In this document: positions 23,645 to 38,037 of the stretch, one piece after another
Layout: each line of letters begins with the position of its first letter
Numbering within the stretch: the stretch's first letter is position 1
Assembly: GCF_001676785.2 (NCBI RefSeq)
Contig: NZ_CP015910.2
Span: 1,674,001 to 1,738,000 of the forward strand
DNA from: Brachyspira hyodysenteriae ATCC 27164
Lineage (GTDB): Bacteria > Spirochaetota > Brachyspiria > Brachyspirales > Brachyspiraceae
Direction of reading: 5' to 3'
DNA length: 64,000 bases
Position numbers and translations under genes: made by a program
Notes under the pieces: model-generated
Database searches by the model: none
What the model saw: only the letters and a program-made list of their open reading frames with translations
Told to the model about the DNA's origin: nothing

Positions 23645-26600
23645 TTATATTTTACTTTTTAATTCCTCTAATATACTTAACATAGCTTTTTTATCTTTAT
23701 ATAATAAAGTTTTGTCATAAGGGTGAAAAATTATATCTTTTTCATCTGTAGACATATTTTTATACATATCCAATTCTTTTATTGGAAAACTACATAAAAT
23801 TGGAAGACCTTTTATATTCTCAATTTTTATTGAGCCAGAATCTGTATTTTTTATTTCATTATTAATTTCTATAATTAATCTTAATTCATTTTCAAATTTA
23901 AAATCATTCCTTTTATCAAAAAAATCCCACACATTTTCATTTTTACTTTTTATTTTTTCTTTATCCATATAGTATAATGAACCTAAATATATTTCTACAT
24001 TATGATTATACAATATAGACATAATACTTTTTATAAAATCTTTAATATCTATAGTCATTCTAAATTTTGTTTTACTGCCATAAATCTTCCACCATGCATA
24101 AGCATTTTCATTACCTATACTATAACTAAAACAAGAAATATAAAGTTTATTCTTTATATCATATTGATTTTCATTGTCATCTTCAAATAAATAAGGATGC
24201 GACATTGTGATACATCTATTTTCAATATCTTTTACCAAATGTTCAAATTCCAATATTCTTGATATTTTAGCCGTTTTATTAAATCTATTATTCAAATTTT
24301 GAAGAAGTTTTTCTAAATTATCATATGATGTTTTATCACCATGTTTATTTTCTATAAAGTATATTGATAAAGATTTATCCTTATATATTTTTATCGGTGA
24401 TATCAACAAAGTTTTTTTATATATTAATCTTTTTTCTAAATTTTTTAAAAATTCTTTTTCATCTTCTGTTTTAGGCTCTAATTCTGTAACTTTTAATAAA
24501 TTATCATATACTTGCTCATCAAAATAATAATCAGTTTTAATTATTTTATCTATTATATATTCAATAATAACTCTTAATTCAAATACAAGATAATAACTAC
24601 CACATTCAGGATATTCTATTTTTTTATCAAGTTTATCATATATTTGATTTATTACATATGTAACTTTAATAAAAGAATTTTTATACTTTTCTATATTATC
24701 AAATATGTAATCTAAATTTTTTATGGCTTCTTCTTGAACATTATAATCATTGGTTATAAAATTACAAAAATATTTAAAAATTTCATTATTTTTATCTATA
24801 AAAATTAATAATGATGCTATATTATCATGTTCATAATATAATACTTCTTTATTTACTGTTCCTTCTAATTTTATATTAATATCATTACTAATATCAGTTA
24901 ATAGTTTAAACTGCTCATTTGTATCTTTTATACTCATCATATCATTTATTTTTTTTATTAATTCATCACAATATTTTTTTAAATTATAACTATTATTGAT
25001 ATTGTTATGTTCTGTAATTTTTATTTCTTTTTTTCTTATTTTTTCTCTAATTTCATATATTATATCTAATAAATCTTTATTATATAAATTATCAAATATT
25101 ATACTATCCTGCCATTGTGAAATTATATTATAATGACATATTCCTATAAAATTAGAATTAAGTATTAATTTTAATAAATCATTCATCAAATCTAATTTTA
25201 TAACACTATCTATTAATAAAGTTGATATATGTGTTATACCATTATTTGATTTATCTAATGTAGCTTTAAAATATTCTAAAATTATTTCTTTTATTTTGTC
25301 TGTATACTTAATTTTATTATCTACAGAATTATATAAATTAATAGTAGATACAAGAAAATAATATTTATATGATGGAAAATTAATAGCATTTTCTATATCA
25401 ATATGTTTTATACATAAATCTAATAAATAATATTTATCTATATTTAATTTTTTTATTATTGAATTAAAATTAAAAGTTTCAAATTCTAAATCTACATAAC
25501 TAGGTCTTCCAACTGGATATTTTATCGAAATACGATCTGATATAAGAATTTGACAAGGACATTCCTTGATAAAATAATAAGGATAACTTAATAGTTCTAT
25601 AATAGATTTATCATCAATAAATCTTTTTAAATCAATGTCAAATCCAAATACTTTTTCTAAATGTAAAAGTATATATTTAGGAAATTGTATATTAATATTC
25701 TTAAAATAGTTTCTTATTATTTCTTTTTCTTCATTAGAAAAATTATAATCATATTTTCTTATTGCTATTAAATAATTATATAAATGCAATATATAAAAAT
25801 TATTCCAATTATCTATCAAATATTTATAAACAATATTAAGATCAACTTCTTCTTGATAGAGAAAATCAAAATTAAATATTTCGTATATATAAAAGATACA
25901 AAATGGATTAAAAATAGGTATACTAAAACTATCATCTATAATCTTATTTTTATCATCAAATGATAAATATTCATATTTATTATTTAATTTATAAAAATCC
26001 ATTTCAGTAATAATACATTTATTATCAAATTGTTTTAATATAAATCCAATATCTTCTTTAATAGCTTCAAAATTGAAAAATTTTTTTATACAATTTATTT
26101 TTTCATTTTCTTTATCTTCTTTATACTTTTCTATTTTATACCTTAACTTTTGTAATTTTTCTATATTTTCTTGTTTTACTTTTAAAATATTATTAATTTC
26201 TTCATCATCTTCTTTTATATTATAAATTGGATCATCACTAGAAAGTATTAGACTAATTCTATATTTTTTTACTTTTTTTGAGCATTTATCATATTTTTCC
26301 TGAGAATCTATATAATTTATAATTATTTGAGAATATAGAAAACTATCTTCTCCTTCGTAAACTTCAAATATGTCAATAATATAATTAGAAATGGTCTTTT
26401 TTAATTTTGATAAATCTATTTCCTCATCTTCTATCTTTAATTTAAAATCTGTGTTTATCAAATGAAAGGCAATATATTTAAATAAAAAATCTTTTTGTTT
26501 TGGTTCTAATTTTTCAATACAGCCTTTTTGATGAATTTTTTTTATAAGCATAAATTGAATGAATAAATAATATGAATAATTATTTGATAAAATATCTTTT

Positions 26601-26926
26601 AACCAATTTGGAAAAGTATAAGAAAATATTTTTATTTCAAAATCTATATCATTTATTTTATCTAAAATATTTAATATTAATTTTATAGAAATAACAGAGT
26701 CAATATCATAATTATTAATGTTTCTATTAAAATTAGATAATATAAATAATATAATATCTTTATTTACATTATCGATATTTTCTTCTTTTTTCAGAAGAAA
26801 TCCTATTTGTTTTGATAATTCCAATACTAATTTATTACCTATATTTTTTGTTTGGTCTATGAAATAGATTATTTTATATAAATTATCTTCTATATAAGAT
26901 ATATTTATATCAATATACTTAATCAT
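23645..26926 (-). CDS. Large protein of unknown function with DUF2971-like C-terminus
   Basis: A 1093-residue protein extremely rich in Ile, Asn, Lys and Tyr, with no signal peptide or convincing membrane helix. Residues 1-880 look all-helical, like an extended repeat scaffold, but I find no named domain. Residues ~887-1093 resemble DUF2971: an ITMSHPYLFEDD segment, a CFSYS strand, an AYAWWKIYG motif (about 943-951), and a FENELRLI motif (about 1011-1018). The start overlaps the stop of the upstream gene by ATGA, indicating translational coupling. Its composition is even more AT-skewed than its neighbours. Role unknown; a defence-type role is only inference. Confidence 0.75.
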   Translation of the reverse strand: MIKYIDINISYIEDNLYKIIYFIDQTKNIGNKLVLELSKQIGFLLKKEENIDNVNKDIILFILSNFNRNINNYDIDSVISIKLILNILDKINDIDFEIKIFSYTFPNWLKDILSNNYSYYLFIQFMLIKKIHQKGCIEKLEPKQKDFLFKYIAFHLINTDFKLKIEDEEIDLSKLKKTISNYIIDIFEVYEGEDSFLYSQIIINYIDSQEKYDKCSKKVKKYRISLILSSDDPIYNIKEDDEEINNILKVKQENIEKLQKLRYKIEKYKEDKENEKINCIKKFFNFEAIKEDIGFILKQFDNKCIITEMDFYKLNNKYEYLSFDDKNKIIDDSFSIPIFNPFCIFYIYEIFNFDFLYQEEVDLNIVYKYLIDNWNNFYILHLYNYLIAIRKYDYNFSNEEKEIIRNYFKNINIQFPKYILLHLEKVFGFDIDLKRFIDDKSIIELLSYPYYFIKECPCQILISDRISIKYPVGRPSYVDLEFETFNFNSIIKKLNIDKYYLLDLCIKHIDIENAINFPSYKYYFLVSTINLYNSVDNKIKYTDKIKEIILEYFKATLDKSNNGITHISTLLIDSVIKLDLMNDLLKLILNSNFIGICHYNIISQWQDSIIFDNLYNKDLLDIIYEIREKIRKKEIKITEHNNINNSYNLKKYCDELIKKINDMMSIKDTNEQFKLLTDISNDINIKLEGTVNKEVLYYEHDNIASLLIFIDKNNEIFKYFCNFITNDYNVQEEAIKNLDYIFDNIEKYKNSFIKVTYVINQIYDKLDKKIEYPECGSYYLVFELRVIIEYIIDKIIKTDYYFDEQVYDNLLKVTELEPKTEDEKEFLKNLEKRLIYKKTLLISPIKIYKDKSLSIYFIENKHGDKTSYDNLEKLLQNLNNRFNKTAKISRILEFEHLVKDIENRCITMSHPYLFEDDNENQYDIKNKLYISCFSYSIGNENAYAWWKIYGSKTKFRMTIDIKDFIKSIMSILYNHNVEIYLGSLYYMDKEKIKSKNENVWDFFDKRNDFKFENELRLIIEINNEIKNTDSGSIKIENIKGLPILCSFPIKELDMYKNMSTDEKDIIFHPYDKTLLYKDKKAMLSILEELKSKI

Positions 26927-27396
26927 ATATATAGATGATTGTATTTTTTTTCATCCTCTTTAGTATGATTAGATTCCAACATATTTAGTATTGCCAATAA
27001 TGAATTATTTACATATTCTATGATTTTGTTTTTATCTATATGTCTACTAACGCATACTATATAATCAAATAAATCAAAAATATCTTGTGAATCTATATTG
27101 TCTTTATCTAAAATATTTTTAATTTCTGATTCTAAACTATTTACAATTATATCTATTATATCATTAAAAAAGTTAGCTTCTGTAATAGTATCAGTTTTTC
27201 CATAATAGTATGTTGTAAAATATGGTAATTCTAATTTTTTTCTTAAATAAAAAAAATAATTGAATATCTCTTTCTTTTCTTTTTTTGAAAATGAGTCATC
27301 ATCTAAAATTAAAGTTTTTAAATAACAGGATACATTTGGATATTTAGACTCTAAAAATTCTTTTCTATTTATAAATTGTAAAACCTTATTTGTCAT
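26923..27396 (-). CDS. Small protein coupled to the DUF2971-like gene
   Basis: About 157 residues, helical, acidic-to-neutral, with no signal peptide. I recognise no domain. The ATG at 27396 is preferred: AAGG lies 7 nt upstream, while an in-frame TTG at 27402 is too close to it. The stop overlaps the start of the 1093-residue gene by 4 nt (ATGA), so the pair is a tight two-gene operon with matched odd composition and probably works as a unit. Confidence 0.7.
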   Translation of the reverse strand: MTNKVLQFINRKEFLESKYPNVSCYLKTLILDDDSFSKKEKKEIFNYFFYLRKKLELPYFTTYYYGKTDTITEANFFNDIIDIIVNSLESEIKNILDKDNIDSQDIFDLFDYIVCVSRHIDKNKIIEYVNNSLLAILNMLESNHTKEDEKKYNHLYI

Positions 27397-27610
27397 ATAC
27401 AACCTTATTTTTAATTATATGCTATCAAAATACCTTTAATTGCAGCTATAATAAATATTATAATTTTATCAATCTATTTAACATCAATTATATTATTATA
27501 TTCTATAAAAAATGTCAGTAATTTTTTAATAAAAACAAATAATTTATTAAGTATTTTAAATTAACAAAAAATATTATATAATAATTGCAAATAAATTCTA
27601 AAGGTTAATA

Positions 27611-28588: not shown

Positions 28589-29317
28589 TTAATTATCTAC
28601 AAAGTAGAAGCTGAATTGTCCGCCTATATCAACAGCACCATAATCATTTTTATTAAATCTTGAATCATTAACTCTTCCAGGTCCGAAATCATATCCAACA
28701 TAAAGTCCTAATCCTAAAGCTGTTTCATCACTAAAGAAGAATAAATAATCCAATGTTAATTTAAGATAAGGAATTACTGACATTTGATATTTATTTTTAA
28801 TATCATTTAAAGTATAATAGCTATTAGAAGTTTCAAATTGATTATATGTAGTATTATAATTTTTAGTAGATTCTCCTCCAGCCAATGGAATTTTTACTCC
28901 TGCTCCTAATCCTATAAAGAAGTTATATATATTAAATTTAGGAAGTATACCTATGCTTAATGTGTCAAAGTAATATGTTGTTTTTACATTTTGATATTGT
29001 CCTGCAGCACCGGCTTGCTTGCTTTCATTAAAGGCATAAACATCTCTATGATAAGCTAAATCCAATGCTATAGAAAATCCCATATAATTATCAAAACCAT
29101 TATATATACCAGGAGTTATTCCAATACCCCATTCAAAACCAGCATCAGTACTCAGTTTACCGTCGCTGCTATTAACTCCCAATTTATGTTCCTGATAACT
29201 TTGAGATATAGATGCTCCTAATGGTATATATATTCCTATACCGGCATTAAAATCTGCGAAAACAGTGCTGAATTGCATTATAAAAATACTAATAATTGCG
29301 ATAAGTATCTTTTTCAT
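28589..29317 (-). CDS. Predicted outer-membrane beta-barrel protein, paralogue of 6262-6933
   Basis: About 242 residues with a signal peptide (MKKILIAIISIFIMQFSTVFA) and a Gly/aromatic-rich mature part of alternating strands. The ATG at 29317 has AGGAG 5 nt upstream; the GTG two codons earlier is too close. Shared blocks with the protein at 6262 are the IPLGASI start, PKFNIYNFFIG, LDYLFFF, and GLGLYVGYDFG. The two are separated by 22 kb, so this is a dispersed family and not a tandem. Surface function is inferred only. Confidence 0.72.
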   Translation of the reverse strand: MKKILIAIISIFIMQFSTVFADFNAGIGIYIPLGASISQSYQEHKLGVNSSDGKLSTDAGFEWGIGITPGIYNGFDNYMGFSIALDLAYHRDVYAFNESKQAGAAGQYQNVKTTYYFDTLSIGILPKFNIYNFFIGLGAGVKIPLAGGESTKNYNTTYNQFETSNSYYTLNDIKNKYQMSVIPYLKLTLDYLFFFSDETALGLGLYVGYDFGPGRVNDSRFNKNDYGAVDIGGQFSFYFVDN

Positions 29318-29431
29318 AAACACTCCTTTATTAATTATTTATAATTATATTATAATACATTGTAAATAAAATGTCAAGAAAAAGTAAATAATTTTTACTA
29401 AAAAAGATAAATATCACAAATAAAGTAAAAT

Positions 29432-32400
29432 TTATTTATCAACATAATCTCTAGGTATACCAGGAAGTATATAATCAAATAAAGCATAATTAGCCATATA
29501 TAAAGTATCTCTGTCATTTGGATTTATAGTATTAACAGGAACTCTATATGTTTTTATATATCTGTATGAATCAATTATACCTTTATCAAAATTATTATAT
29601 AAATACTTCATCACAGTATAGTAATCACCTGAAGAATTAGTAGTATATGTGAATAAAAGCTTAGTATCATTTCTAGCTTTTAAATATCTGTTTATATCAT
29701 TATTTCTAGCCGGAGATAAGAAAATATCCATATCATCATAAGGCTTATCTCTGTTCGTATCTATTCCTATATAATGCATCAAAGGTATTTTTCCATTGGC
29801 ATTATCAAATGATTTTACAGCCAAACTTTCTAATGATGTATAGAAGTTAGTTTCTGTATTAAGTTTTATAGAAGGCTTACCAACATCTAAAATAGAAGAA
29901 GGAGAATATTGGAACTCTCTTATTTTTATAACATCATTATTCTGGAATGCTTCCAAATATGCAAAAGGAACAGTAAATAAATTAGCAGCAGAACCTGTTA
30001 TATATATTTTTTCAACTCTTTCTGCATCTTTAATTATATCAGATGAAAGCATAGCACTTTGAATAGATTTTAATGAATTTCTTCTATCCCTTGGTTTTGC
30101 TACATTTGTAAAGCTATTCAAATATGTATTAAGTTTTTCTCTATCTATCAAAACAGCTTTTTTTACTTCGCTGTCTCCTATAACATAACTATAAGCTGCA
30201 TATTTATTATCCTCATAAGCATAGAATATAAACATAGTATTAGTATTTTCATTTGAGAATATTTCATAAGCATCTTTTATATTATTATCAAAATTACTTT
30301 CAGGTACACGTATCTTATTTAATAATCCATATATATAAGCTGAATTAGTTTTGTATAATGAATAGAATCTATTTGCAAAAGATGCCACAGTTTCCGCTTC
30401 AAATATATATTGATTTCCATAAATATAATTCATAGTTGTGAATATATCATTTTCATTAGTTGCATCTGTATTCATTATAGTATTTGCAACAGTCAATACT
30501 TCGTTTGTATTTTGCATTCTATTTAAGAAATTAGTTACTGTATCAATAGGAGTATTAGCATATATTAAATCATAAAGAACAGCAACTTCTAAAATTTTAT
30601 CTTTATTTTCTCCGTCTACTCTAGTTGCAATATAATTCAAATATCTTACAGATTCTTTAGGATCATTTTTAGCTTTTAAGAATCTTGATAAAGTTCTAGG
30701 TGTAAAATACTCGTCTATAAGATCATAATTATTATTAGTATACAAATACATAAAATGCAATGCTCTATTAGCACCTTTAACTGCACCATCTTCTCCCATT
30801 CTTCTATATACAGGAAGCATAGATTTTATAAATCTGTAAGCATTAGAATCGCTTATATTAGTATATGAACTTGCAAAGAATTTATAACCTTCTTCAGAGA
30901 ATAAATATGCGGTATTTGTATCTTTAACTGCATATCTGTCTTCAACAATCCTAGCATAATTAAGCATCTTTTCATTATCACTCTGAGAATAAGCAATAAC
31001 ATTTGACATCATAGTTATGCTTGGAGAAGCACTTGAAGAATAAGAATTATAAAGTCTAGTTTTAAACTCATAAGCTGCATTTGATAATGAAGATACACTG
31101 TAATCAGGTTTTCCATATACAGTAAATATATTATTATCATAGCCTTTCATACTAACTTCCAGAGAATTAGAAGATAATTTCCTGAAATAATTAGTATAGA
31201 ACATTATTCTTGAATCTTTTCCGCCTTTTCCTACAACTAAAGCTATATTATTTATATCTCTTAAAACTCTTCTATTATTTGTGAATGTTTCATTATCGCA
31301 ATAAACTATATATAGATTCTTTTTCATTATGTTAGATATATCAGAAGCACTCGCACCTGTTATATCTGTAACTAATGGAACATAAGAATTAGTAGCTATA
31401 TCTTTTAATTCTATGAATCTAAAACTTCCTCTTCTTCTCCTATTTGTAGAAACTGTATTTGTAGAAGTCATATTTGTAGACATATCATTTGAATACATAT
31501 TATTAGTTTCTTCAGGATTATAGGAAACATTCATATATAAATTTCTATTATCAAAATTATTTAATTCATTATCTTCTGGCAAATTATTATAACTATAAAC
31601 ATTATTAGTAACATTAGTATTGCTTGCCATAGTCATACCGCTGTTTATTTCTTTCTCAGCATTTCTAGTAGTTCTGAAGAATGCTATTAATTTACTATCT
31701 ATATAAGCAGTTTTTGCAGGAAGCATATATTCTGTTGAATCATATAATTCTCTTACAAATATATTTCTATTGCTTATAACAATAGGTCTAAATCCTATAT
31801 GAGTAACATAGTTTTTAGTTTTAGGCATAGAATTAGTCTGCATATAGAATGAAGTTCTTCCATTTTCTCTAACAAATCTATATCCTAAATAAGTATCCCA
31901 AATAAGAGTTTCATCTTTACGCATAGATTTATCAATATCTTCAGCTTTAACATCACATATAACTATAGGCTCTATAGGAGTATTAGAGAATTTATCTATT
32001 GCCTCCTTTTCGTAAGTAGATATTTGCTTAAGCATAGCAGATTCCATTTTACTGTCATAAGGAGTATCTACAGCATTCAAATACATCTGATATGAATATA
32101 AAGCCTTTTCATAAAGTTTGTAATATTCTCTAAGATAATAATTGTTCTCACCCAAAGTATAAAGTCTCTTATCTAAGAATTTCCTTCTCATATCAATGGC
32201 ATCAAACATGGCAAGTATATTAATGCTGGCATCAGGATAACTGTCTTTCAAAAACTCTATAACTTTATATTTAGCTTGTCTTAATATAAAGTTATTATCC
32301 TCTACAAATGTTATCATGAATACGCTTTCTCTCAATCTTTTAAGTATTCTAAATACATACTGCACAGGATAATCCAAACTATCCGGATATCTGTTTCTAT

Positions 32401-35400
32401 ACTTAGAACTGAAATCAATCAAAGTAGTAAGTATTGCAATTTCTTCAACGGCAAAAGCAGAAGTCTGTGCCTTTGAGAATGCTGACATATATTCTCTAGC
32501 TGCCTCTTCTATATATCCAGCTAATTCATAAGCTTTAGCCAAATTATATCTTATAATAATTTCTGTTTTCAAATCCACAGGGAAATTAGAGTTAGATGAT
32601 AAAATATATTTATACCTATCTATAGCATCTTTAAGCATAGATAATCTTTGTACATTAACATCATGATCTCTCATATCTGTAGGATCATCTGATTGTTTTT
32701 TTCTATAATTGACACTGTTATCTGCTGTAAGTTTGAAAGCCATAATATAATTGAAAGCAGCTATATGAGAATATAATAATAATCTGTCTTTTGTGCTTAC
32801 AACATTATTTGTTGATAATATCTGAAGTGTTTTAGTAGTATTAAATAATTCTATAAAAAATTCTCTTCTAATAGAAGTTAAATCATTTTCTGATAAATAT
32901 CTTAAATATAAAGATGATAAACTTAAATAGTTTTTAGCATCGTTTTCAGCATTCTGATATTGAAGACTAGGATTATTAGCTAAAGTCTTTGCATCTAAAG
33001 TTTTCTGATATTCTTCTATTGATGTTTTAAAAGACATTATAGAATTTGACTGATCACCCTGTCTGTAATAAAGATATCCTTCATTATTGTAATATGTAGC
33101 AAGCATTAAAGGCTGAATAGATTTTTTAGGTTTATCTTGTATAATATAATTACGGTATGAAGATAAAGCTTCTCTAGCCTCAGAATATCTTCCCATTTTC
33201 TCATACAATTCCTGATATATAGAATATAACATCTGCTGTTTATCTACGTTTAAAGGCTCTCCAGGTATATATCCTCCGAAAGATGCAAGTCCTAAATTTA
33301 CAACGTTTATATTAGCACCATACAAAGTTATACTAACATAATTAGGAGTATAAACAGAAGAATCCAAACTATCTATTTGGGCTTTTACACTATCACAATA
33401 AGCTAAGGCATTATTATAATCTTCTAATTTTAAATAACATGCAGCAAGTAAAAGCTGATTAAGTTCATTTTTATTAACATCATCTTTTGTAAGTTTATCT
33501 CTTTCTAGTAAAGACTCTATAGCCTTTTCATAATCTTCTTGTTCTATAGCAGCAACTGAAGTATATCCAACTATTTTATATACACTTTCTTTATCACCTA
33601 ATTTCTCAAATAAAGCACGGGCTTTCTCATATTCGCTATAAGCTCCTTTTATATCATTGTTCATCCATAAAGAATAACCATAAAAGAAATGATACCAAGC
33701 CTTACTTTTATCTGATCCTACTTGATTTAAAAGACTTTCTGCTTCCTTATATTCATTAACTGCATCTGAATATCTTCCATTTATTAAATAAGAATTTGCA
33801 AGCATTATAGAAACTACATTAGGCTTAGTTCTTACTTTACTTTTTGCCATTATTAATGAATCTATAATTTCTGAATCCAAATTCTGAGTTTGGAATGCAA
33901 GCATATTATATCCCATATATTGACCATTAGTAATTGCATTATCTTTATAAGCCGGTACTAACTCTATTACACTTTTAGATGTTTTTTCATCTTGAAGAAC
34001 CTGCATTCTTAAAGCCTGAGCAAATGTTAACATCTCAGCCTTTTTCACATAATAATTCTCTTCATCAGGATATAAGAATATTGCAAAATTAATATATGAT
34101 ACAGCCTTTTCAACTATAGTATCAAAAGCCATATTCAAATATAGATAAAATCCGTCTTCTCTTTTTTTCTCACTTACAACATATCGTTCCGGACTATACT
34201 GTTTTGATACAGCTATACCATAATATCTATTAGCCAAGTAATAATAGGCATTAGCAAGTTCAGCATGTGCCTCATGAGAAGAATATCTAGTTGATAAAAT
34301 ATTTCTCTCTCTCTCTAATATAGTTTCTTCAAGGGATTCTATTGTACTGTATGCTCTAAGTCCGCTCTCTATAACTCTTGATGAAGAAGAAGTATCATTA
34401 GGATTATATTTTAAAGTTTCATTATAATTATCATAAGCAGCGGCATATTTACCCTCATTGTATGCTTTATCTGCCAAAGATTTATAATAATTAGCTAATG
34501 TATCTTTACAATACTGTGCCTCATAAGTAGAATCAAAATTTTTTCCGCCTGAACTCAATGCTTCTTTAAACAAAGCATAAGAGCCGTCATCTTTCTGAGC
34601 CATAAGTACTTTAGCATTAGCATAATAACCCAATGCAAGCATTATATCGTTTTTAGATTCAACATAAGGCTTAAATAAATTAGTAGCATCATCATAATTT
34701 CTAGAGAGTATAAGTCCGTCCAAATATATAAGTCTGGTAGCAACAGCTAAAGGAGCATAAGGATGTGCGTTTTCTATTATAGTATCATAAGAAATTTTTG
34801 AATCTCTTATAAAATCTTTTGCAATCTCTAATCTATCTGAAAATAATAAATCTCTTCTTTTATAAGGATTATTATAAATATCTTCATCTTCAGGATATTT
34901 GTATCCATTATCTTCAACTGAATGAGCATATAATTTAGCTATTGGAATATATAAGTCTTTATTAATATTTAAATTAATAATTTCACTAAGAATTGCAAAT
35001 GTATCTTTATTATTTTTATTAGCTTTATATTTTTCATTAGCAGATATATATCCTGTCCAAGCTATTAAATTAGTAATTTCCAAATCATTATTAGTAAGAA
35101 AATATTCATTTGTATATGATTCTATATCAAACCAATTATTATTAGTATCAAATTTTGTATCTATCTTTGATGTTAAAAATCCTGGAAATGTATCTAAATA
35201 TTCAGATGTTAATACTTTTTTGGCATTATTATATTCATTCATATTCTTATTAGTATATGATGAAACCATCATATTAAAATAAGCTTTGGCAACATTATTC
35301 TGATCTTCAGAAAAAGGGAAATATTCAGCAAATCTTTCTATAACATCAACTTTTCTATTATATGGAAGTTCTACAAAACTATTATACATAGCTGCTGAAC

Positions 35401-36430
35401 TATCATCTTTTATAAAATATTCCTTAGTGGATCCCATTGTAACTATACTTGTGCCATCTTCACTTACAACATAAGTTCCAACCAAAGCTGAAGGATAAGC
35501 TACATTAAAAGTTGTTAATTGAGTATCTTCTGATAAAACATAATATTGATGAGTCGCCAAAGAATAAGACATTAAACGTCTTTTATCATAATAAGTTAAA
35601 TTTCCATCTCTGTCAGAATCTTTTTCTATCTCAAAGAAAATAATAGTATCATCATTATAAAAAGTAGGATTAAACTTGAATGTTTCTGTATCTGTAAGTA
35701 TAGTTAAATTAGTTTCATTGTTTGTATTATGAGTTAAATCTAATATAGCTAATTGAGAATATTTATCTCCTATTTTAGAAGTTATGAATGCTATCTTTGT
35801 ATCATCAAAAGAAAATGTAGGAGAACTAGCTTCAATATCAGATAATTTTTGAACATCTTTACCATTAGGTTTTACAGCAAAAAGTTTCTTTATTCCTCCG
35901 TCCCTATCCGAAACAAAAGCTATAATATTACCTTTATGAGAAACCACAGGATCAGTATCATAACCCTTATAATCAGTAAGCCTTACAATACTTTGCTCTA
36001 AGTTTTCTAAATTATTTTTTGAAGTTCTTATCCCAAGATTATAAAGTTTATATAAATAAATATCTCCGAAAGCATCATCTCTAGTTGAAGAAAATACTAT
36101 ATATCTTGATTTATCATCAATAGAAACAGATGTATCTATTGCAGGACTTCTAGTTAATCTATAGGTTTCTAGTGTGTATGAATCTACGGCAAAAATATCA
36201 GTATTTCCGGCATTTTCTCTTGAATAATAAATCCAAGTACCTTCTCTATCAATAACAGCATCCAATGCCGGATTTACTTCTCCAGACGTTAAAGAATATC
36301 TTTTATATTCTCTTAAAAAAGGTCTGCTGCTAAATGCAGAATCAGAACTTTTCTGACTTGATGCACAAGCAAACAGAATAAAAGAAAATAAAATTAATAT
36401 TTTAAATTTCATATAACACTTTAATCTCAT
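29432..36430 (-). CDS. Giant lipoprotein: TolB-like PD40 propeller, TPR array, CHAT-like C-terminus
   Basis: A 2332-residue protein. The signal peptide ends in a lipobox FACASS, so a lipid anchor is predicted. Residues ~55-345 hold PD40/TolB-like blades (IYYSRENAGNTDIF, VFSSTRDDAFGDIY, AFVSDRDGG). Residues ~380-1550 are a long helical region with TPR units (for example KAYNEGKYAAAYDNYNETLK). A low-complexity Asn/Thr/Ser segment follows near 1620-1710. The C-terminal ~280 residues resemble a CHAT peptidase fold: IYITGSAANLFTVPFAYLEA (2142-2161), FQYSPSSIL, and MHYIG (His2219). The usual catalytic-Cys strand reads LLFTYTTNSSG with no Cys. An alternative start is the ATG at 36412. It follows the STAS gene. 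Confidence 0.8.
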   Translation of the reverse strand: MRLKCYMKFKILILFSFILFACASSQKSSDSAFSSRPFLREYKRYSLTSGEVNPALDAVIDREGTWIYYSRENAGNTDIFAVDSYTLETYRLTRSPAIDTSVSIDDKSRYIVFSSTRDDAFGDIYLYKLYNLGIRTSKNNLENLEQSIVRLTDYKGYDTDPVVSHKGNIIAFVSDRDGGIKKLFAVKPNGKDVQKLSDIEASSPTFSFDDTKIAFITSKIGDKYSQLAILDLTHNTNNETNLTILTDTETFKFNPTFYNDDTIIFFEIEKDSDRDGNLTYYDKRRLMSYSLATHQYYVLSEDTQLTTFNVAYPSALVGTYVVSEDGTSIVTMGSTKEYFIKDDSSAAMYNSFVELPYNRKVDVIERFAEYFPFSEDQNNVAKAYFNMMVSSYTNKNMNEYNNAKKVLTSEYLDTFPGFLTSKIDTKFDTNNNWFDIESYTNEYFLTNNDLEITNLIAWTGYISANEKYKANKNNKDTFAILSEIINLNINKDLYIPIAKLYAHSVEDNGYKYPEDEDIYNNPYKRRDLLFSDRLEIAKDFIRDSKISYDTIIENAHPYAPLAVATRLIYLDGLILSRNYDDATNLFKPYVESKNDIMLALGYYANAKVLMAQKDDGSYALFKEALSSGGKNFDSTYEAQYCKDTLANYYKSLADKAYNEGKYAAAYDNYNETLKYNPNDTSSSSRVIESGLRAYSTIESLEETILERERNILSTRYSSHEAHAELANAYYYLANRYYGIAVSKQYSPERYVVSEKKREDGFYLYLNMAFDTIVEKAVSYINFAIFLYPDEENYYVKKAEMLTFAQALRMQVLQDEKTSKSVIELVPAYKDNAITNGQYMGYNMLAFQTQNLDSEIIDSLIMAKSKVRTKPNVVSIMLANSYLINGRYSDAVNEYKEAESLLNQVGSDKSKAWYHFFYGYSLWMNNDIKGAYSEYEKARALFEKLGDKESVYKIVGYTSVAAIEQEDYEKAIESLLERDKLTKDDVNKNELNQLLLAACYLKLEDYNNALAYCDSVKAQIDSLDSSVYTPNYVSITLYGANINVVNLGLASFGGYIPGEPLNVDKQQMLYSIYQELYEKMGRYSEAREALSSYRNYIIQDKPKKSIQPLMLATYYNNEGYLYYRQGDQSNSIMSFKTSIEEYQKTLDAKTLANNPSLQYQNAENDAKNYLSLSSLYLRYLSENDLTSIRREFFIELFNTTKTLQILSTNNVVSTKDRLLLYSHIAAFNYIMAFKLTADNSVNYRKKQSDDPTDMRDHDVNVQRLSMLKDAIDRYKYILSSNSNFPVDLKTEIIIRYNLAKAYELAGYIEEAAREYMSAFSKAQTSAFAVEEIAILTTLIDFSSKYRNRYPDSLDYPVQYVFRILKRLRESVFMITFVEDNNFILRQAKYKVIEFLKDSYPDASINILAMFDAIDMRRKFLDKRLYTLGENNYYLREYYKLYEKALYSYQMYLNAVDTPYDSKMESAMLKQISTYEKEAIDKFSNTPIEPIVICDVKAEDIDKSMRKDETLIWDTYLGYRFVRENGRTSFYMQTNSMPKTKNYVTHIGFRPIVISNRNIFVRELYDSTEYMLPAKTAYIDSKLIAFFRTTRNAEKEINSGMTMASNTNVTNNVYSYNNLPEDNELNNFDNRNLYMNVSYNPEETNNMYSNDMSTNMTSTNTVSTNRRRRGSFRFIELKDIATNSYVPLVTDITGASASDISNIMKKNLYIVYCDNETFTNNRRVLRDINNIALVVGKGGKDSRIMFYTNYFRKLSSNSLEVSMKGYDNNIFTVYGKPDYSVSSLSNAAYEFKTRLYNSYSSSASPSITMMSNVIAYSQSDNEKMLNYARIVEDRYAVKDTNTAYLFSEEGYKFFASSYTNISDSNAYRFIKSMLPVYRRMGEDGAVKGANRALHFMYLYTNNNYDLIDEYFTPRTLSRFLKAKNDPKESVRYLNYIATRVDGENKDKILEVAVLYDLIYANTPIDTVTNFLNRMQNTNEVLTVANTIMNTDATNENDIFTTMNYIYGNQYIFEAETVASFANRFYSLYKTNSAYIYGLLNKIRVPESNFDNNIKDAYEIFSNENTNTMFIFYAYEDNKYAAYSYVIGDSEVKKAVLIDREKLNTYLNSFTNVAKPRDRRNSLKSIQSAMLSSDIIKDAERVEKIYITGSAANLFTVPFAYLEAFQNNDVIKIREFQYSPSSILDVGKPSIKLNTETNFYTSLESLAVKSFDNANGKIPLMHYIGIDTNRDKPYDDMDIFLSPARNNDINRYLKARNDTKLLFTYTTNSSGDYYTVMKYLYNNFDKGIIDSYRYIKTYRVPVNTINPNDRDTLYMANYALFDYILPGIPRDYVDK

Positions 36431-36522: not shown

Positions 36523-36855
36523 TTAAAATGAAGCTACAGCATCATCTACGCTTTCATATACTTCAAATAAATCTTCTAATTCTACTGTTTTCAATATTTT
36601 CTTAATTATATCAGGAACGCAAGCTAATACCAATCTTCCATTTTTATCTTTAATTTTTCTCATTATAGAAATGAACACTCTTATACCGCTTGAACTTAAG
36701 TATTCTATACCTGATAATTCTAATATCAAATTAATAGAACCTGATTCTACTAATTGCTCTAATTCAGCTTCAATAGATACAGATAAATTAACATCTAATT
36801 TACCTACTAAACTTACAACCTTAACTTTTCCTTTATCCTCTATGTTTAAACTCAT
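36523..36855 (-). CDS. STAS domain anti-sigma factor antagonist
   Basis: A 110-residue SpoIIAA-like single-domain protein. The phosphorylation-site motif YLSSSGIRV (Ser at 54-56) is intact, so regulation by a serine kinase and phosphatase (partner switching) is likely. AGGAG is 7 nt before the ATG. No anti-sigma kinase or phosphatase is adjacent in the window, so the partners are elsewhere. It lies 92 nt upstream of the giant lipoprotein gene on the same strand. Confidence 0.9.
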   Translation of the reverse strand: MSLNIEDKGKVKVVSLVGKLDVNLSVSIEAELEQLVESGSINLILELSGIEYLSSSGIRVFISIMRKIKDKNGRLVLACVPDIIKKILKTVELEDLFEVYESVDDAVASF

Positions 36856-36978: not shown

Positions 36979-37497
36979 TTATGATAAAATTCCTATCATA
37001 GCTTTTTTTTCCCAATTGATATCAGATGATTGAGGACAAGGAAATGTATTCCATTTAACATTCTTTTTTGCAATCCAATTTTCTTTATCTTCAAAAACTC
37101 CGTTAAATTTCATCCATTTATTTAGTTTGGTATAATAGGAAGGTTTATAGGCATAAGTATAATATAATTTATTATTTTCAACTATATATCCTTCCATAAA
37201 AGTTACCTTTATAGAAGGATATCCGGAAAAAACAAGCATAAATTTGTTTAAATAGTCTGTATTACTATAAACAGCCATATTATCATGTTTTGCCTGAATA
37301 AAATTTAATCTTTTCTTTTTATTTATAATAAGATCACCGTCTTCTTTGAATAGATAATCTCTATCCGCTTCCTTTACAACTCTATTTTGTACTAATTTAA
37401 TCCAAGCATTATCATAAGAAATAACTGTTTTATTATTAATAAAAAATAAAACAGTTAAAACTAATAGTATAACTAATATAATAGAAATATACGACAT
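36979..37497 (-). CDS. Membrane-anchored protein, paralogue of the next gene upstream
   Basis: A 172-residue protein with an N-terminal hydrophobic helix (3-22) and no clear cleavage site. Its C-terminal block (KWMKFNGVFEDKENWIA, then NTFPCPQSSDINW) matches the neighbour at 37507 (SWKKANSTFTNERWVA, NSYPVPQPEDVNW), so they are tandem paralogues. There is no good ribosome-binding site before the ATG. The only GGAG lies inside the end of the upstream gene, 9 nt before its stop region, suggesting translational coupling. Function unknown. Confidence 0.65.
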   Translation of the reverse strand: MSYISIILVILLVLTVLFFINNKTVISYDNAWIKLVQNRVVKEADRDYLFKEDGDLIINKKKRLNFIQAKHDNMAVYSNTDYLNKFMLVFSGYPSIKVTFMEGYIVENNKLYYTYAYKPSYYTKLNKWMKFNGVFEDKENWIAKKNVKWNTFPCPQSSDINWEKKAMIGILS

Positions 37498-37506
37498 TAT
37501 ATTTTT

Positions 37507-38037
37507 TTAATATAACTCTCCTGCATATTCTCCATCAGCCCAGTTAACATCTTCAGGCTGAGGTACAGGATAAGAATTCCAATCAGCATCTGCATTAGCT
37601 ACCCATCTTTCATTAGTAAAAGTAGAATTAGCTTTTTTCCAAGAATCTAATTTGCCTTGATAGCTTTTTATATATTTTGAATATCTCATTATTTTTCCGC
37701 CCTCTATAGAATAACCTTCAACTAAGTTAATTCCTAAAGCTGGGGCACCATCATAAAACATTGATATAGGTACTTGATGTGTATAATAAGCATGTGTATC
37801 TGATCTAGCACCCATAAATTTATATAGCTTAACAAGTAAAAGAGGAGATCTTCCTGAAACTAATTCTAAATCTCCTCCAGGTCTTCCTTCATATAATGCA
37901 CCTTTCATATCTATAGTTTTTTTAAAAATGAAATTAGCCCAATTCTTAGAATAATCACTGTCTTTTGTTATATTTTGTGCATTTAAAAAATTAAATGAAA
38001 AAACAAATAAAAATATAAACAAAAATACTTTCTTCAT
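37507..38037 (-). CDS. Exported protein of unknown function (tandem paralogue)
   Basis: A 176-residue protein with a cleavable signal peptide (ends FNFLNAQ, residue 21), so it is periplasmic or surface-located. The mature protein carries Trp/Tyr-rich segments and a C-terminal block shared with the gene at 36979 (NSYPVPQPEDVNW). I do not recognise the family. It lies 9 nt before its paralogue, with which it is probably cotranscribed. Confidence 0.65.
   Translation of the reverse strand: MKKVFLFIFLFVFSFNFLNAQNITKDSDYSKNWANFIFKKTIDMKGALYEGRPGGDLELVSGRSPLLLVKLYKFMGARSDTHAYYTHQVPISMFYDGAPALGINLVEGYSIEGGKIMRYSKYIKSYQGKLDSWKKANSTFTNERWVANADADWNSYPVPQPEDVNWADGEYAGELY

Follow-up and report, generated by a model that had tools for sequence, protein, structure and literature searches.

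A giant spirochaetal lipoprotein with a putative degenerate CHAT domain and its possible link to an AsmA-type lipid-transport system

Introduction

Why should a protein that appears to be a lipoprotein of the cell envelope end in a domain resembling the CHAT proteases, and why without their catalytic Cys? This question is raised by a single very long gene in the window analysed here, a stretch of 64,000 nucleotides from Brachyspira hyodysenteriae ATCC 27164. An earlier note on this DNA had described a lipoprotein of 2332 residues joining a TolB-like propeller, a TPR array and a CHAT-like domain, and had considered it either a pseudo-protease or a new active-site variant. No description of such a giant lipoprotein family was found in the open-access literature, and the full architecture is covered by no curated family, since Pfam, NCBIfam and PADLOC contain only its propeller, TPR and CHAT pieces.

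Gene and domain architecture

The gene extends over 29432..36430 on the minus strand, and its intact reading frame encodes residues 1-2332 plus the stop codon, with the coordinates and length first given for it; Met7 is a possible alternative start. Behind a hydrophobic signal sequence lies the lipobox L19-F20-A21-C22 (36365..36376, minus strand), which is kept in Brachyspira, and lipoboxes of a similar kind occur in many distant relatives. The signal peptide and the lipobox Cys show, as motifs, a protein predicted to be exported and lipid-anchored, in keeping with its initial description as a lipoprotein. The TolB-like propeller was likewise recovered, at about residues 45-345 (35396..36298, minus strand), as PD40 repeats (PF07676, E 4.1e-10) with a partial match to the NCBIfam TolB propeller model (TIGR02800, E 3.3e-16). 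These repeats are of the same family as those of TolB of the Tol-Pal system, but the giant protein differs from TolB in being lipid-anchored and in scoring 59 bits against the cut-off of 343 for a full-TolB equivalog.

The propeller is followed by a helical array at about residues 360-1440 (32111..35353, minus strand), whose TPR nature is weakly detectable in the window protein (best E 0.001), whereas the TPR matches of its relatives are strong (1e-22 to 1e-18). A beta-rich mid region then spans about residues 1500-1770 (31121..31933, minus strand), the region in which relatives have the first of their degenerate CHAT domains; it includes an Asn/Ser/Thr-rich insert of variable length (about residues 1599-1672, 31415-31636). 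A second block of helical repeats, at about residues 1779-1957 (30560..31096, minus strand), is modelled by AF2 as all helix with a pLDDT of about 70-90. The remainder, residues 2060-2332 (29435..30253, minus strand), is assigned as a C-terminal degenerate CHAT domain from its profile match to the C-termini of spirochaete relatives.

Other reading frames of the window lie close to the giant gene. Just 3' of it, a 244-residue ORF (28589-29323) has a start resembling a signal sequence and a pattern like that of a beta-barrel, with no Pfam match. At 23645-27402, a 1093-residue ORF, for which neither Pfam nor PADLOC gives a significant match, overlaps by 4 bp a 159-residue ORF of no family, and the pair may form a two-gene unit. 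Two ORFs in tandem (36979-38037, minus strand; 172 and 176 residues) have similar C-termini with a W...P.P.. motif and belong to no Pfam family.

Distribution among spirochaetes

The search among relatives found the giant gene in each of 25 Brachyspira genomes, the source genome (3.07 Mb, two contigs) counted, and one further genome was added later. This presence across all Brachyspira genomes searched rules out a mutation of one strain. The orthologues are single, full length and mostly 71-96% identical, the exceptions being those on split contigs and that of G009, the most distant one (62/52% identity). A second Brachyspiraceae genus, represented by G148, has the protein at 37% identity, while the gene is absent from the third genus, g18, of which two genomes (G066 and G074) were searched.

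A contig scan with one protein, not an alignment, yielded only close Brachyspira relatives, including those of B. hampsonii and B. innocens. With a distant relative from G037 as the query, ORFs of about 2200-2900 residues were found in many other Spirochaetota families; full-length relatives span 2200-3160 residues, one ORF reaching 3159. Using several family members as queries and taking out short TolB-type ORFs, the gene was counted in 108 of 247 sampled Spirochaetota genomes. The best explanation of these data is that the giant lipoprotein belongs to an undescribed, spirochaete-wide family.

A strongly diverged CHAT domain

The CHAT-like C-terminus proposed from the sequence finds no Pfam CHAT match (PF12770) in the window protein, and what upholds it is a profile match to relatives that do bear CHAT. 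Among these, the G037 relative matches Pfam CHAT at E 5e-14; the model also matches the C-termini of 13 of 47 relatives (best 1.3e-11), and genome searches with it match the ends of several giant ORFs. For one large clade among these relatives (the T-clade), the C-terminal profile was compared by hhalign with a canonical CHAT profile, built from spirochaete proteins with intact HxxxHG and SAC motifs, and matched it with 98.5% probability (E 3e-15) over 225 columns, the first strand (..IFITD..LE.VPFEI..) included as well as the final helix and strand (..HPAYWAGIRLY).

With regard to Brachyspira itself, the C-terminus matches the relatives' profiles at E 0.003-0.004 in one-to-one comparison. An unrelated domain that has replaced CHAT in this genus would account for so modest a value (E about 0.003), as well as for the silence of Pfam and the poor AF2 models obtained in the AlphaFold check suggested in the earlier note, which for residues 1950-2332 and 1430-1960 have a pLDDT of 41 and 50 from alignments of 8-9 close sequences. 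Nevertheless, such a replacement seems improbable, since the match to colinear relatives covers about 225-265 columns in register through the C-terminal end and, for one family profile, scores 28.3, above all 150 column-shuffled controls (maximum 25.0). Moreover, the PF, LE..A and Y.A....L motifs are conserved, and an intermediate sequence (L093, 36% identity) exists. In the PDB, the best match of the family profile is the CHAT-domain protein 8tl0, at a non-significant E of 0.083. Partly because the whole protein is colinear with relatives ending in CHAT, we read the Brachyspira C-terminus as a very diverged CHAT domain, the most diverged branch of the family, on evidence that is good but not conclusive.

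A second degenerate CHAT domain is present at about residues 1290-1730 in relatives of two families (L022, L061 and L098). The profile of this mid-protein copy matches canonical CHAT (95%, E 3.8e-8) and, at 97.7-98.1%, the C-terminal copy; a partial match occurs in another family (L069, E 5e-6). In Brachyspira, the corresponding region is a beta-rich stretch with no CHAT match detectable by profile comparison. An ancestral tandem plan, [TPR-CHAT]-[TPR-CHAT], is plausible from these sequences, the evidence coming from the other families and not from Brachyspira.

Loss of the catalytic dyad

As first noticed, the window protein reads FTYTTNSSG where CHAT proteases have their Cys, so that Thr2263-Thr2264 (29639..29644, minus strand) stand at the Cys position. 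Other Brachyspira have FTY followed by T/A/S/N and then T/N/A, and none of the orthologues carries an intact Cys. His2219 (29774..29776, minus strand) is conserved across Brachyspiraceae; its counterpart in HxxxHG is the first His, which is non-catalytic. The second His of the motif, the catalytic one, has Ile at its position in the Brachyspira alignment. No counterpart of this second His or of the SAC Cys was seen in any aligned family member. The giant protein is without either residue by which a catalytic CHAT domain is recognised, the second His in HxxxHG and the Cys in [S/N]AC. The suggestion of a pseudo-protease domain on an exported lipoprotein is supported, neither of the refuting observations named in the earlier note having been made, while that of a new active-site variant is not. 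A residual or non-canonical protease, with Thr or Ser instead of Cys paired with His2219, could appeal to the Thr of the window protein and to the conservation of this His, and is nonetheless highly improbable, because the candidate positions change to A, N or S among orthologues, His2219 matches the wrong His and no nucleophile is conserved in the other families.

Retention of a caspase-fold domain after loss of its dyad has been described for the pseudo-caspase FLIP(L) (PMC7586951) and for pseudo-orthocaspases (PMC6426788); the domain considered here differs from these in belonging to the CHAT clade, in being exported and in its fusion to a propeller. The succession of repeats and a CHAT domain is shared with the TPR-CHAT proteases, such as Csx29 of Craspase. 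In contrast to the latter, the giant protein is an exported lipoprotein of about 2300-2900 residues, with a propeller and without the catalytic His and Cys, and neither CRISPR nor gasdermin neighbours were seen at its loci.

An ordinary CHAT protein, distinct from the giant one and about 445 residues long (L030 913-2250, C1:354827-355471; PF12770 E 1e-10), is also encoded in the source genome. It bears motifs resembling HxxxHG and NAC and is found in the other sampled Brachyspira genomes as well. Its neighbour on the 3' side resembles an N-acetylmuramoyl-L-alanine amidase. In G148, a similar gene (L151 3836-5143) lies three genes from the giant gene, an arrangement not seen elsewhere.

Association with AsmA-like and DUF1318 genes

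When the surroundings of the giant gene were compared at 24 loci of many families, the neighbours most strongly conserved were genes for an AsmA-like protein of about 1000 residues (position -2) and a DUF1318 lipoprotein of about 200 residues (position -1), each cluster being present at 14 of the 24 loci. In L145, the two match Pfam AsmA at E 1.2e-7 and DUF1318 at E 1e-7. The DUF1318 gene lies immediately 5' of the giant gene on the same strand, with a median gap of about 12 bp (60 genomes, 10 families). After removal of TolB-type ORFs shorter than 1000 residues (G026, G052, G065, G077, G083 and G089), the giant and DUF1318 genes occurred together in 104 of 247 genomes, the giant gene alone in 4 and the DUF1318 gene alone in 1, with 138 genomes containing neither; these counts refer to genomes and not to independent events, shared ancestry being uncorrected. 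The sister genus g18, devoid of the giant gene, also lacks the DUF1318 gene.

This adjacency is a property of the family, but not of Brachyspira itself. In the source genome, the pair is found at C1:2.075-2.079 Mb, about 365 kb away from the giant gene, where an AsmA-like protein of 1087 residues (DUF748, E 6.9e-11) and a 203-residue lipoprotein of the DUF1318 type are encoded by genes separated by 28 bp. The Pfam DUF1318 match of the Brachyspira lipoprotein is sub-threshold.

The gene order recalls that of E. coli, ydbH-ynbE-ydbL, in which an AsmA-like gene is likewise followed by lipoprotein and DUF1318 functions. In E. coli, YdbH belongs to a set of three redundant factors that are essential to growth and outer-membrane lipid homeostasis (PMC8593681), and YnbE acts with YdbH to move glycerophospholipids into the outer membrane (PMC11784454). 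In spirochaetes, by contrast, the lipoprotein and DUF1318 functions are united in one protein, and the giant propeller-TPR-pseudoCHAT lipoprotein is added. The DUF1318 half of the spirochaete lipoprotein matches YdbL (95%, E 2.9e-8). By-eye homologies of its first half to YnbE and of the AsmA-like protein to YdbH were unsupported by profile comparison, in which neither E. coli protein matched the spirochaete profiles.

The link to cell death or defence that a CHAT domain had first evoked is not borne out, the conserved neighbours being the AsmA/DUF1318 envelope genes and partner-switching regulators. As for a defence system, PADLOC gives no match for the giant protein.

Possible function of the giant lipoprotein

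Because the dyad is missing from all family members aligned and genes of the AsmA/DUF1318 type are adjacent in most spirochaete families outside Brachyspira, we favour an envelope scaffold over an enzyme or a defence protein. More precisely, the sequence data give about an even chance that the giant protein is a periplasmic or envelope scaffold, or a regulator, of an AsmA-type lipid-transport bridge. The propeller and the TPR repeats would form a long scaffold, whose surfaces may bind partners. The TPR-CHAT module, its dyad visibly gone from the sequences, would have lost its protease function early, its fold being retained as a structural or binding domain instead of for cleavage. The putative partner system consists of the AsmA-like inner-membrane protein and the DUF1318/YdbL-type lipoprotein, with the E. 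coli YdbH-YnbE-YdbL system, carrying phospholipids across the periplasm, as its model. The giant protein would then probably dock the bridge to the outer membrane, or else regulate or space it. Against such a role stand the separation of the genes in Brachyspira, the linkage coming from other families, and the four genomes in which the giant gene occurs with no DUF1318 gene detected. We also know of no counterpart of the giant protein in the E. coli operon.

The main rival of the lipid-bridge reading is an envelope sensor feeding a partner-switching pathway of SpoIIE phosphatase, HATPase kinase and STAS protein, in which the AsmA link would merely be monitored. In the window, the giant gene is immediately preceded, at 36523..36855 on the minus strand, by a gene for a STAS-domain protein of the anti-sigma-factor-antagonist type (PF01740, E 1.4e-19), and a STAS gene is upstream in another Brachyspira locus too (L158). 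SpoIIE, HATPase and STAS genes follow on the 3' side in L140, L150 shows a matching size order, a SpoIIE-type gene is found at +1 in several other loci, and STAS stands at -3 in L155. We nonetheless judge the sensor unlikely: the identity and position of these regulators vary between families, whereas those of DUF1318 do not; partner-switching genes may simply be common in these genomes; and no transmembrane helix able to signal into the cytoplasm was identified. Under the lipid-bridge reading, the same STAS/SpoIIE genes might hint that the expression or state of the giant protein is tied to envelope regulation.

An adhesin or other surface-exposed protein in contact with the host or environment, unrelated to lipid transport, would fit the lipobox, the great length, the repeats and propeller and the Asn/Ser/Thr-rich insert. 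It is still less probable than a sensor, considering the operon with AsmA/DUF1318 and the almost strict co-occurrence of these genes in many families, and also the strong conservation within Brachyspira, which is unlike that of variable surface antigens.

Returning to the lipid bridge, a more specific proposal, which we put forward tentatively and with somewhat less confidence than the general role, is that spirochaetes possess an AsmA/YdbL-type bridge to which a giant lipoprotein of the outer membrane is dedicated, its scaffold being provided by dead TPR-CHAT proteases in tandem. This assembly would be an undescribed envelope machine.

Implications

In a literature search combining AsmA and spirochaetes, the giant protein appeared in no title or abstract found among open-access papers. 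Lipid transport to the outer membrane has been little studied in spirochaetes, and a conserved operon partner provides a concrete candidate component. The family also suggests that a CHAT domain can persist across the phylum as a non-catalytic part of the cell envelope; a CHAT annotation should therefore not automatically be taken to mean a protease, cell death or defence. If the proposal is true, the tandem dead TPR-CHAT scaffold would put the CHAT fold to use outside the cytoplasm and without proteolysis.
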